From the NCBI GenBank assembly GCA_963204825.1, contig CAUJHN010000104.1, forward strand, positions 1-33,341: 33,341 nt of DNA, read 5' to 3'. Position numbers and translations under genes: made by a program. Shown here one piece after another: positions 27,779 through 32,128 of the stretch (within the stretch, counting starts at the first letter, position 1; each line of letters starts with the position of its first letter). A model generated the notes under the pieces. It did no database searches and was not told where the DNA came from. It was given only the letters and a program-made list of their open reading frames with translations. Origin of the DNA: Pseudomonadota bacterium. GTDB taxonomy: Bacteria > Pseudomonadota > Alphaproteobacteria > Micavibrionales > Micavibrionaceae.

Positions 27779-28054
27779 ATGAATAAAGCAGAACTCATCG
27801 AATATGTTGCCAAAGAAGCCGAACTGACCAAAGCCGACGCGCAAAAAGCCGTTGAAGCTGTTTTCGGCGGCATCACGGCAACGCTGCAAAAAGGCAATGA
27901 ATGCCGCTTCGTAGGCTTTGGCACGTTCGCCGTGACCAAGCGCGCCGCGACAACGGGCCGCAACCCACGCACAGGCGAAAGCATCAAAATCCCGGCATCC
28001 AAATCCGCGAAATTCAAAGCGGGTAAAGAGCTGAAAGACGCCGTTAACAAATAG
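27779..28054 (+). CDS. hup: HU-family nucleoid DNA-binding protein
   Basis: HU bends and compacts DNA and helps replication and transcription. The 91-residue protein begins MNKAELIEYVAKEAELTKAD and contains GFGTFAV and the DNA-binding beta-arm signature GRNPRTGESIKIPASK. A strong AAGGGG lies eight bases before the ATG, and codon use is strongly biased, both fitting a highly expressed protein. Its position after lon is the common proteobacterial arrangement. It ends at a good terminator. Confidence 0.97.
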   Translation: MNKAELIEYVAKEAELTKADAQKAVEAVFGGITATLQKGNECRFVGFGTFAVTKRAATTGRNPRTGESIKIPASKSAKFKAGKELKDAVNK

Positions 28055-28165: not shown

Positions 28166-28240
<75 letters not shown>

Positions 28241-28260: not shown

Positions 28261-29274
28261 ATGAAATCTTTGCTTTTAAGCTTTTTCCTTCTGCTGTTGA
28301 CTTTGCCCGCGCATGCGCAAAACGCGCCGCCGGAAGCGCGGCCTTTCAGCAAGGAGGAAATGAAATCGACATCGCTCAGCGAGCTGATGGAGCAGTCCAA
28401 GAAGAAACGTTTTGCCATTGAAGACGAAAACGCCCCCGAGCCGCGAAAAACGAAATCGGGAAAGTTGTATCAGCCGAATGTTGAAATCTGGCTGCCTCCC
28501 GAATTTCAGTCGACGGAACAGAAGTGGCCGTTGATTATATTCTCACATGGCTTTGGCGGGTGTTCAAAGCAATCAACGTTCCTTACGCAATATCTGGCCG
28601 ATAACGGTTACATCGTGATCGCGCCCGATCATGCGGATGCTGATTGCAGGAAGCGGCTGGGGCTTGATCTGGGCTTGCAGGAAATGCGCGCTGGAAAATC
28701 CTTGCGGCCTGAAAAACCATTCCGCAATCCTGAATTATGGACCGATCAAACCGAAGCGGACAGGAAGGACGATATTTTATTTGCGCTCTCGTCCATGTTG
28801 GATGATCGCCAATATGCGTCTTATATCGATAAGGACCGCATTGGCCTGATGGGGCATTCGCTGGGCGGCTACACGGTTTTAGGAATGGCCGGGGCCTGGC
28901 CGTCGTGGAAGGATAAGCGATTCAAGGCTGTGCTTGCATTATCACCCTATGTAGAGCCGTATTTGCGTATCGGCGCCATGCGTAAAATCGGCGTGCCGGT
29001 GATGTATCAGGGCGGAACGCGCGATGTCGGGATTACGCCGTCCTTGAAACGGGCGGGCGGCGCGTATGCGCAAACGCATGAGCCGAAATACTATATTGAG
29101 TATCTGGGCGCCAATCATTTCGCCTGGACGGAAATGGAAAAGAGCTTTCAGTCGGTCATTCAAAAAACGGCGCTGGAATTCTTTGATAAATATCTAAAGG
29201 AAAAGCCGGTGGAAATAGACGAGGCAAAAACGCCTAAAGTAAGCGTGTTCAGGAAAGAAGAGGGAAAACCCTAA
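28261..29274 (+). CDS. Exported alpha/beta hydrolase (dienelactone-hydrolase/PAF-acetylhydrolase-like)
   Basis: This 337-residue protein starts with a clear signal peptide (LLLSFFLLLLTLPAHAQ, cleavage about residue 20). The alpha/beta-hydrolase fold shows FSHGFGGCSKQ (oxyanion region), APDHADADC and the nucleophile elbow GLMGHSLGGYT (Ser in GHSLGG). The likely acid lies in YQGGTRDVGIT and the catalytic His in GANHFAWTE. The substrate is unknown; an ester or lipid is likely. The start at 28261 excludes the overlapping tRNA-Val. The 20-base leader lacks a strong ribosome-binding site, and no separate promoter is visible, so it is probably cotranscribed with tRNA-Val. It is likely periplasmic or secreted. 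Confidence 0.92.
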   Translation: MKSLLLSFFLLLLTLPAHAQNAPPEARPFSKEEMKSTSLSELMEQSKKKRFAIEDENAPEPRKTKSGKLYQPNVEIWLPPEFQSTEQKWPLIIFSHGFGGCSKQSTFLTQYLADNGYIVIAPDHADADCRKRLGLDLGLQEMRAGKSLRPEKPFRNPELWTDQTEADRKDDILFALSSMLDDRQYASYIDKDRIGLMGHSLGGYTVLGMAGAWPSWKDKRFKAVLALSPYVEPYLRIGAMRKIGVPVMYQGGTRDVGITPSLKRAGGAYAQTHEPKYYIEYLGANHFAWTEMEKSFQSVIQKTALEFFDKYLKEKPVEIDEAKTPKVSVFRKEEGKP

Positions 29275-29289
29275 ACCGCCTGCGCGGTT
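29274..29289. terminator. Weak hairpin after the hydrolase gene
   Basis: AACCGC (29274-29279) and GCGGTT (29284-29289) form a six-base stem with loop CTGC. Only a TTCTTT stretch follows several bases later on the plus strand. It lies between the convergent hydrolase and small-protein genes. Confidence 0.35.
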
Positions 29290-29298
29290 CGGGGTTCT

Positions 29299-29400
29299 TT
29301 AGGCTTTTACTGTAGAGCGCGCTGCTTCCAGATCGCGGATCATGGAGATGATGTGCGCGTCGTGTGCGAGGAATTCGCTTTCGGTGAGGTCGATGGTCAT
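29299..29400 (-). CDS. Small protein of 33 residues, unknown function
   Basis: This short gene encodes MTIDLTESEFLAHDAHII followed by SMIRDLEAARSTVKA. Support comes from AAGGAA seven bases before the ATG and from strong G/C bias at third codon positions in most codons, both typical of translated genes. The peptide is predicted to be mainly helical and amphipathic, acidic in the first half and basic at the end, without a membrane segment. I recognise no family. It lies between the convergent hydrolase and the LysM-protein gene upstream on the same strand. It could be a fragment of a longer lost gene, but the start, ribosome-binding site and stop look intact. Confidence 0.6.
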   Translation of the reverse strand: MTIDLTESEFLAHDAHIISMIRDLEAARSTVKA

Positions 29401-29568
29401 GGTGTCGTTCCTTATATCTATGATTTTTGGTCTATGGTGGGCAGTGTGAGAGTGAAAAGCGGCGGAATTTCCATCAGAATGTGGAAATACCGGGGCATTT
29501 CACAGGCATGACAATGCCAGACCTTGGTTAAAGATCCGTAAAGGAACGTCTGAAATTTTTAAAATAGG
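29401..29568. other. Intergenic stretch with no gene seen
   Basis: This is upstream of the 33-residue gene and downstream of the LysM-protein gene. It holds the ribosome-binding site of the small gene (AAGGAA on the minus strand at 29408-29413). I see no convincing promoter and no other open frame with coding character. Confidence 0.5.
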
Positions 29569-29595
29569 TATGCCGGGATTATTTCACCCGGCATA
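29569..29595 (-). terminator. Hairpin after the LysM-protein gene
   Basis: TATGCCGGG (29569-29577) and CCCGGCATA (29587-29595) form a perfect nine-base stem with a nine-base loop, starting eight bases beyond the stop codon. On the minus strand the T-rich run follows only after a few bases (ACCTATTTT), so termination is likely but not textbook. Confidence 0.65.
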
Positions 29596-29602
29596 AAATT
29601 GA

Positions 29603-30868
29603 TTATAAAGCGCTTGTGGGTGCAAGCCATTGAGGTCTTGCTGCGGAAGGCGCCGCTGCTGCTGCCGGGGCTGCTGGGGCTATCGGTGTAGGGCCCAGGC
29701 TTTCCGTCAGTGTTTGCAGTGGGTTTGCTCCGTTGCGGCCAAGGTCGACAGCTCTGTAATTGCCTTGTGCGTCTCTCTTTTCCATCTGGCCATTGTGAAT
29801 GCGTACGCCTGCGCGCTCTGCTTCGGCCATACGGACGGCGAAGGCTTCTGGGCTTTGGGCTCTTTCCGTTGCCAGACGTGTGTGCAGATCCGAAGACACG
29901 GATGTCAGACGGTGCGCATCGCCGCGGGCCATAAATTCGCTCAATGTTTCAGCAACTTTAATTGTTGTGCCGTGTTTGATGATGTTTGGATTCGCTATGC
30001 CGTTAATGGCGGCAAGTTCTTCTGCCGTTTTCATCGCGCGGCCCTGGGGATTGACGGCAAGGCCAATATAGCCAAGCTGGTCGCCAGGTCGGATCGTGTA
30101 TGTGTTCGCATTTGGATCAAGTTGTACGGGCTGAGGCCTTGCGGCGGCGTGTCCGAAATTTGTCGTCGGGCGATGTGCCGGCAGAACAGCTGGCGCAATA
30201 GGAACTGCAACAGGTTGTGGTCTTTCGGGTGCTCTTTGTGCTTCATAGTATGGTGTACGTCCGGAACCGCCCGGGCCTTCCTGCCCGCCGACTTCGGATG
30301 GCGGCAGGTTGTTAGAGCCTCTATAATGTGCATACAGCTCCGCCTGGCTACGGTTCGGGTTCGGCGGCAGTGCTGCTGATTGTCCGGCATAGCCTGAAGG
30401 AATAATTGCCCGCTGGGCTTGGTAAGAGACAGCTGGCGGCGGTGCTTGAATGTAGTTAGGCCCCATATAAGCTGGTGGCGGCGCGTATTGTACAGGCGGT
30501 GCGTAGTACGGCGCGGGTTGCGGTTGCGCCATCGCGGCGATCGTTTCTACTGTGCCTACGCCTATGGCTGCTGCCGCGAACGCTCTGCGTGTGCCGTGGT
30601 CAGGCATAACCGCGCCCAGGGTGCCTAATAAGGCGCCGACAGGGCCTGTGCCATATCCGTAAGCCGGAGCATAATAGCCCGTTTCATAAGGGAAACGCTT
30701 GGATACCGTAAGATTGGGGGCTCCGCCAACGAGCGCATGGCCGCTTCTCGAGTGCGTCGGGCCGCCCCAATAACCGCTGAAGTTTTGATGGGGAAAGCGT
30801 GGCGCATAAGCCGGCATATTCGGATTGTAATAGCTGCCGCCGCTGCTTGTTACGTGTGGATATCCCAT
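29603..30868 (-). CDS. Proline/tyrosine-rich protein with one LysM-like domain and no signal peptide
   Basis: This 421-residue protein has an N-terminal Gly/Tyr/Pro-rich part (1-75) and a Gly/Ala-rich hydrophobic stretch (about 76-113, VGALLGTLGAV and AFAAAAIGVGTVETIAAMA). A long Pro/Tyr/Gln-rich low-complexity segment follows (about 115-250). A LysM-like domain spans about 255-305 (NTYTIRPGDQLGYIGLAVNP to NIIKHGTTIKV), then a helical, charged region and an Ala/Pro-rich tail. LysM domains bind peptidoglycan or chitin, so export is expected, yet the N-terminus (MGYPHVTSSGGSYY) is no Sec signal. The start is well supported by AGGGG eight bases upstream. It may use another secretion route or be a phage-tail-like or surface component; this is inference. 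Confidence 0.82.
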   Translation of the reverse strand: MGYPHVTSSGGSYYNPNMPAYAPRFPHQNFSGYWGGPTHSRSGHALVGGAPNLTVSKRFPYETGYYAPAYGYGTGPVGALLGTLGAVMPDHGTRRAFAAAAIGVGTVETIAAMAQPQPAPYYAPPVQYAPPPAYMGPNYIQAPPPAVSYQAQRAIIPSGYAGQSAALPPNPNRSQAELYAHYRGSNNLPPSEVGGQEGPGGSGRTPYYEAQRAPERPQPVAVPIAPAVLPAHRPTTNFGHAAARPQPVQLDPNANTYTIRPGDQLGYIGLAVNPQGRAMKTAEELAAINGIANPNIIKHGTTIKVAETLSEFMARGDAHRLTSVSSDLHTRLATERAQSPEAFAVRMAEAERAGVRIHNGQMEKRDAQGNYRAVDLGRNGANPLQTLTESLGPTPIAPAAPAAAAAPSAARPQWLAPTSAL

Positions 30869-31018: not shown

Positions 31019-32128
31019 ATGATCATAGGCGTACCCAAGGAAATCAAGGCTCAGGAGCACCGTGTGGGGCTGGTCCCGGCCAGTGTGCGGGAGTTTACGG
31101 CCCACGGGCATAAGGTTCTGGTCGAAAGCGGGGCCGGAGCCGGGATCAACTTTATGGACGCGGATTATGAAGCCTGCGGGGCCGAAATAGCCAGGGACGC
31201 AGCGGATATATTCAAACGCGCCGACATGATCATAAAGGTGAAGGAGCCGCAGGCGGCTGAATGCCAGATGCTGCGTGAAGGGCAGGTCCTGTTCACCTAT
31301 CTGCACCTTGCCGCCGATCCGGCGCAGGCGAAAGGGTTAATAGATTCTAAATGTATCGCCATCGCCTACGAAACCGTAACCGGCGCAGGCGGGCGTGGTT
31401 TGCCGCTGCTGGCGCCTATGAGTGAGATTGCAGGCCGTCTTTCCATTCAGGTGGGTGGGGCTTATCTGCTCAAGCATCTCGGTGGACGCGGTCGCTTGAT
31501 CGGCGGATCTCCCGGCGTCGAACCGGCGAAGGTCGTCGTGCTCGGCGGCGGCGTATCCGGTTTTCATGCCGCGGAGATGGCGGTGGGCATGCAGGCGAAT
31601 GTGGTGATACTGGAGCAGAATCATGACCGCATCCGCGAACTGGACAAACATTTCGGCAACCGCGCGCGCGTCATTCAGGCATCGCGCGATGCGATTGAAC
31701 GCTATGTTCTTGATGCCGATCTGGTTATCGGCGCGGTCCTTATTCCGGGCGCGAGTGCGCCGAAGCTTGTCACGCGCGCGATGGTAAAGGCTATGCGGCC
31801 AGGTTCCGTTCTTGTCGATATCGCCATAGACCAGGGCGGCTGTTTTGAAACCAGCCGCACGACAACGCATAACGACCCTGTTTACAGGGTGGACGATGTC
31901 ATACATTACTGTGTGGCCAACATGCCGGGGGCGGTGCCGATGACATCGGCGCAGGCGCTAAACAACGCCGTTCTTCCTTACGCGCTTGCACTTGCAGACA
32001 AGGGGTGGAAAAAGGCATTGTCTGACGATGTGAACCTGCGCGCAGGGTTGAACGTTTATAATGGCCAGATCACGCACCGGGGCGTGGCCGAGTCGCTAGG
32101 AATGCAATTTACGGAGCCTGTTTTATGA
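31019..32128 (+). CDS. ald: Alanine dehydrogenase
   Basis: Ald interconverts L-alanine and pyruvate plus ammonia with NAD. The 369 residues match the family. The N-terminus MIIGVPKEIKAQEHRVGLVP is the family signature. The catalytic Lys75 (IIKVKEPQ) and His96 (TYLHLAAD) fall at their usual positions. The nucleotide-binding loop reads VLGGGVSGFHAA, where GAGVVGTNAA is more common. NMPGAVPMTSAQALNNA is the other conserved segment. A weak AGG lies ahead of the ATG. The stop overlaps the next start by four bases (ATGA), so translation is probably coupled to the aminopeptidase. G+C at third positions seems higher here than in the 3-6 kb region. Confidence 0.96.
   Translation: MIIGVPKEIKAQEHRVGLVPASVREFTAHGHKVLVESGAGAGINFMDADYEACGAEIARDAADIFKRADMIIKVKEPQAAECQMLREGQVLFTYLHLAADPAQAKGLIDSKCIAIAYETVTGAGGRGLPLLAPMSEIAGRLSIQVGGAYLLKHLGGRGRLIGGSPGVEPAKVVVLGGGVSGFHAAEMAVGMQANVVILEQNHDRIRELDKHFGNRARVIQASRDAIERYVLDADLVIGAVLIPGASAPKLVTRAMVKAMRPGSVLVDIAIDQGGCFETSRTTTHNDPVYRVDDVIHYCVANMPGAVPMTSAQALNNAVLPYALALADKGWKKALSDDVNLRAGLNVYNGQITHRGVAESLGMQFTEPVL

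Follow-up and report, generated by a model that had tools for sequence, protein, structure and literature searches.

We describe a small protein gene of 33 codons, MTIDLTESEFLAHDAHIISMIRDLEAARSTVKA, at 29299..29400 on the minus strand of the window, i.e. the whole stretch of 33,341 nucleotides analysed here (contig C104 of a 1.94 Mb genome in 166 contigs). The gene runs from an ATG at 29400-29398 to a TAA at 29301-29299, and comparison with relatives shows it to be conserved as coding sequence and held under purifying selection. Its predicted product is a new, lineage-restricted small protein that is ordinary in kind. A Micavibrio-like lineage thereby gains a well-supported small protein and, taken together with a candidate CtrA box, a testable candidate cell-cycle or developmental regulator. 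In the open-access literature, no paper was found with both Micavibrio and small proteins in its title or abstract.

Coding conservation within the genus

The comparison within the window's genus (g1) covered three genomes, namely the window genome (G000), G001 and G002, and the small gene lies at the same place in all three. Identity to the window peptide is 76% in G002, and in G001 it is 64% in the alignment and 61% in the search match. Twenty of the 33 positions are invariant among the three peptides. The start and stop codons are kept and the frame is unbroken in both relatives, and the sole length change is one extra in-frame codon (a 3-base insertion) in G001. A protein search of 58 relatives at E<=1 returned four genomes, i.e. 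the three genus members and G042, whose match (E 0.38) was rejected as chance, its frame lying antisense inside another ORF. In a profile search of 142 genomes of the order, the three genus members reached E<1e-21, and all else scored no better than 0.0048.

The substitutions separating the three copies are strongly biased towards silent change. Nei-Gojobori counts (own script) gave a pS of 0.654 and a pN of 0.163 between the window and G002, 0.515 and 0.202 between the window and G001, and 0.824 and 0.207 between G002 and G001. For the same pairs, differences at codon positions 1/2/3 number 7/4/16, 8/6/13 and 10/5/19, giving the third position 16/27, 13/27 and 19/34 of all base differences. 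Read in either shifted frame, these bases have no silent excess. The residues changed number 8, 12 and 11, compared with approximately 17-19 under random placement of the substitutions (P 0 to 0.013, 5000 draws each), and random placement introduces a stop codon in 35-48% of draws. A sequence-only reading of this DNA had named conservation in close relatives and synonymous-biased change as the checks on the gene, and both speak for it, with an unbroken frame in the two other genus genomes (2/2) and pS values of 0.52-0.82 against pN values of 0.16-0.21.

Frame and start signals

A ribosome-binding site, AAGGAA, lies at 29408..29413 on the minus strand, with a 7-base spacer to the ATG, and the equivalent position is occupied by GGAG in G002 and AAAGGAG in G001. 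The G+C content per codon position is 0.58/0.39/0.70, which resembles that of adjoining genes (0.59/0.35/0.59 for lon and 0.67/0.43/0.66 for ald). In the frame list of the window, the gap 29275-29602 holds no further frame of at least 90 codons. The sequence-only reading had described each of these features, i.e. an intact 33-residue frame with a stop, AAGGAA at seven bases, a third-position G/C bias (here measured at 0.70) and a gap otherwise free of genes, and all were recovered; it had given no strand.

Taken singly, the ORF and its ribosome-binding site are weak evidence and not beyond chance. The window contains 166 ATG frames of 30-60 codons, 10 of which carry an SD-like site, and the remaining nine share coordinates with long frames or a tRNA. 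The small gene is clear of chance because of the comparative evidence, that is, the relatives, the alignment and the substitution pattern. A reader's cue of this type (ribosome-binding site and third-position G/C in a gene-free gap) can flag a real gene that single-sequence statistics are unable to certify.

Genomic neighbourhood and transcript boundaries

The small gene is convergent with an alpha/beta hydrolase gene (28261..29274, plus strand; PAF-acetylhydrolase-like, PF03403 E 1e-13), and its upstream neighbour encodes a proline/alanine-rich LysM-domain protein (29603..30868, minus strand; PF01476). The conserved interval is bounded by an HU gene on the left (27779..28054, plus strand; PF00216) and by alanine dehydrogenase on the right (31019..32128, plus strand; PF01262, PF05222). 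The gene order in G002 is HU, hydrolase, small gene, another minus-strand gene and alanine dehydrogenase, and that in G001 is HU, hydrolase, small gene and another minus-strand gene. The hydrolase orthologue adjoins the small gene in both genomes and its 3' end points towards it in all three, with an overlap of 11 bases in G002. The upstream gene varies: it encodes a LysM protein of 421 residues in the window, a protein of 333 residues in G002 (L006 1798-2799), where a LysM-like stretch was recognized by eye, and one of 434 residues that looks unrelated in G001 (L004 1747-3051). The mechanical hydrolase frame begins at 28180, inside tRNA-Val (28166-28240); the true start is likely the ATG at 28261, from which the N-terminus resembles a signal peptide by eye.

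The hydrolase and the small gene were considered as a pair, and the pairing is not essential because two genomes of a second genus (G036 and G060) carry a DUF983-like gene instead, and G050 has a hydrolase without the small gene. G050 is the one genome among 58 with a hydrolase homologue outside the genus at E<=1e-20, and no such small gene was seen by eye beside its hydrolase locus.

An intrinsic terminator hairpin is predicted directly after the stop codon of the small gene (29265..29298; -20.9 kcal/mol on the minus strand, z -3.0) and would be common to the small gene and the convergent hydrolase gene. On the upstream side, a predicted terminator of the LysM gene lies at 29569..29595 on the minus strand (-15.6 kcal/mol, z -3.75) and is followed by a T-rich run. 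Since terminator-like hairpins flank the small gene on both sides, it most likely forms a single-gene transcript. In G001, a hairpin with A and T runs lies between the small gene and the hydrolase (z -3.2), and in G036 a hairpin follows the copy of the gene (z -4.1). A sigma-70 consensus scan of the gap found no promoter, and the scan also missed both bulged or wide-looped hairpins. An RNA-family scan of the window returned three tRNAs only, and nothing relevant was found among repeats near the small gene.

Distribution beyond the genus

Diverged copies were identified in a second genus (g35). In the 142-genome profile search, G060 gave a weak match (E 0.034) to a 33-codon minus-strand frame with its own AAGGA site, and this match was kept despite its poor E-value because of its genomic position, in the order lon end, HU, DUF983-like gene (by eye), small gene (minus strand) and alanine dehydrogenase. 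At E<=1, a search with the G060 peptide matched 3 of 99 genomes, of which two were dropped (G107, E 0.54; G024, E 1.0) and the third, G036, has its copy (E 1.6e-5) in the corresponding lon-HU-X-[gene]-ald position. The second genus thus has the copy in 2/10 genomes, and none was found in the other eight. A profile comparison of the two genera scored 25.6, whereas 300 column shuffles reached at most 14.7, and six positions (M1, L5, E9, A12, D14 and I18) are common to all five peptides. These results refer to a small sequence set of three close and two distant peptides.

Wider searches covered the order, the class and viral contigs. The region downstream of lon was fetched from 40 of the 133 lon-matching genomes, a sample lying outside the window's genus. 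HU was present in 40/40 of these regions and alanine dehydrogenase fell within the fetched stretch in 25/40; a motif scan placed the small gene in G036 and G060 only, and nine other lines of the scan were judged by eye to be chance. At E<=0.5, the 142-genome search gave 45 places in 39 genomes, three of them the strong genus members. Fifteen places had no locus and were left unopened, and another 26 were read by script, with three at contig ends (L016, L017 and L033) left out of judgement; the rest of the 26 were rejected as long unrelated frames, short frames without neighbouring genes, or members of a ~87-residue family (L008, L009 and L030) that is discussed below. A class-wide profile search with the five peptides in 385 genomes returned G000, G036 and, in G009, the helix of a protein of 87 residues, with no copies beyond those of G000 and G036. 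A phage origin was also considered and rejected, as viral contigs contained no relative (46 pattern stretches, none confirmed).

Peptide properties

AlphaFold2 with the five-row alignment predicts a single helix over residues 7-32, with a mean pLDDT of 90. The net charge is -3 in the window peptide and -3 or -4 across all five peptides, and the conserved stretch is E-[FY]-x-A-x-D-x-[HY]-[IL]-I-x-x-[IV]. The hydrophobic moment of the helix is not above that of shuffled peptides (P 0.16-0.46) and so lends no support to an amphipathic docking face. Pfam and NCBIfam gave no match for the five family peptides at E<=5, PADLOC gave none for three peptides, and PDB chains gave none at E<=1. Matches in PHROGs were sub-threshold only (E 0.37 for the window peptide and 0.073 for that of G036), and in both cases the family is of unknown function. 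The description of a charged, helical peptide of no familiar family, made earlier from the letters of the window, agrees with these results.

A candidate CtrA box

A CtrA-like box, TTTACGGATCTTTAAC, lies at 29527..29542 on the minus strand, 126 bases before the ATG, with one mismatch to TTAA-N7-TTAAC. The form of the Caulobacter CtrA motif is TTAA-N7-TTAA (PMC4287350). The box reads TTTA-N7-TTAAC in the window, TTAG-N7-TTAAC in G002 and TTAA-N7-TTAAC in G001, with 1, 1 and 0 mismatches at distances of 126, 126 and 120 bases upstream of the start codon, respectively. This mismatch total was reached in 0 of 20000 dinucleotide-preserving shuffled triples, in a test designed after the motif was seen. 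The window alone contains six sites with at most one mismatch against 5.75 expected, which is chance level, and the copies in G036 and G060 lack any box closer than 2 mismatches.

All three genus genomes encode a CtrA orthologue (71-73% identical to the Caulobacter CtrA query across 224 residues), and exact TTAA-N7-TTAAC boxes outnumber the reversed pattern by 24:8, 33:15 and 30:19 in these genomes. Box context was examined at 30 loci among the 87 matches listed; three pairs were palindromic, leaving 27 distinct places, and 21 of these were intergenic by our own ORF rule. One exact box precedes a CheA-like kinase gene, and FtsK-like and GGDEF-type neighbours were recognized by eye. Control of the small gene by CtrA is plausible, supported rather than shown, because of the CtrA orthologues, the excess of boxes over the reversed pattern, their mostly intergenic placement and the three boxes at similar distances from the ATG. 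The G002 box (L003 1362-1381) lies within a near-perfect inverted repeat, GGCGTTTGTTAACAAACGTC, and may have another role because this repeat can fold as RNA. No paper joining CtrA with Micavibrio was found in the open-access literature.

Proposed mechanism and alternative explanations

We lean, with somewhat more confidence than doubt, towards an account in which a genuine free-standing gene with a CtrA-box promoter encodes a cytosolic, acidic 33-residue peptide that acts by helix docking. Transcription would start from the gene's own promoter, downstream of the LysM gene terminator, and in genus g1 this promoter is probably controlled by the cell-cycle regulator CtrA. Translation in the cell would be initiated at the AAGGAA site, and the transcript would end at the predicted terminator common to the convergent hydrolase gene. 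The product is predicted to be a single helix (residues 7-32), folded alone or upon binding, whose conserved stretch most likely binds a single protein partner and modulates its action. Translation in the cell and the cytosolic location, docking and regulatory role of the peptide are what we infer.

The alternative that survives best, itself unlikely, is that the small gene encodes a helix-only microprotein, a reduced relative of the unnamed ~87-residue beta-beta-alpha-beta family that mimics or replaces the helix of that domain. The small-gene profile finds the helix of the G009 87-residue protein (E 2.5e-4 when calculated for a single genome), and the reverse search returns the G001 small gene (E 0.0076). 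The hhalign score is 30.0, a value reached by none of 600 column shuffles (highest 21.6), and the matched residues 48-74, which resemble the small peptide, fall on predicted helices of the 87-residue model. However, the G009 row, which carries most of the similarity, was chosen by the search itself and the score without it is 25.6, while genus g1 alone, without G009, scores 20.5, inside the shuffle range. Short helices easily look alike, and the peptide lacks the three strands of the family, is encoded elsewhere in the genome and shares neither synteny nor common neighbours with it. Further, no partner to mimic was found in G000, G002 and G036 because no 87-residue protein matched there at E<=0.1. 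A microprotein derived from or mimicking the helix of this domain, which belongs to stress-type gene clusters, and put under CtrA control in one genus is more doubtful still.

The G009 member of the ~87-residue family matches 18 of 58 relatives at E<=0.1, one match being the G001 small gene, and has no match in Pfam or NCBIfam. In sister genera (L084-L095 and L102; alignment A4), the family follows the pattern HPLV..MYLKK...VLVIET...FDSYLxDLLxDLxDLK.QAE..VG.FDRVDIR. The 87-residue model is strand-strand-helix-helix-strand with a mean pLDDT of 76; a fold search with it was uninformative (best E 0.015), since the 50 matches listed fell almost entirely on small parts of large acyl-CoA-synthetase-like chains. 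Among five neighbours tested are CsbD, PRC-barrel, DUF2383, EF-hand and response-regulator proteins, and in several loci the family adjoins genes for PRC-barrel, CsbD, DUF2383 and EF-hand proteins. In G037 (L019 1393-3046), two tandem short genes of 68 and 73 residues are convergent with a hydrolase gene distantly related to that of the window (35% over 149 residues); the helix of the first is like that of the small gene, and the second belongs to the ~87-residue family.

Far less probable is a role as the antitoxin or toxin of a small toxin-antitoxin pair, which the small, acidic and free-standing nature of the gene would fit. No partner gene is seen alongside, PADLOC has no match, and the charged peptide (net -3) is unlike the membrane toxins of type I pairs. 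A leader peptide acting by attenuation on a downstream gene, to which the small size and the hairpin directly after the stop codon could point, is slightly more improbable again, given that the next gene is the convergent hydrolase and no same-strand gene follows, that the two genes overlap at their 3' ends in G002, and that the peptide lacks a run of any single regulatory amino acid. Just as improbable is a chance frame within a conserved non-coding element (a 5' or 3' region or a small RNA): a frame with a ribosome-binding site is not rare in the window (10/166), but the third-position bias of the changes strongly disfavours it, as do the in-frame insertion in G001 with start and stop kept and the amino-acid conservation that extends to another genus.

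Comparison with known small proteins

The preferred reading, a free-standing small protein gene, has precedents in kind. In Caulobacter crescentus, small CDSs under 50 residues were found by ribosome profiling (PMC4117421). The small gene is like them in being short, free-standing, overlooked by routine gene finding and alphaproteobacterial; the evidence here is comparative whereas there it is experimental, and no sequence relation is claimed. In a global smORF catalogue, over half of the families that have at least three members are restricted to one genus, and a CDD domain is reported in 6.1% of small-protein families (PMC11364881). The small gene fits this picture of genus-specific families, few of which have a known domain, and the catalogue may already list it. 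It differs from the genus-specific families of the catalogue in that another genus carries a diverged copy in syntenic position.
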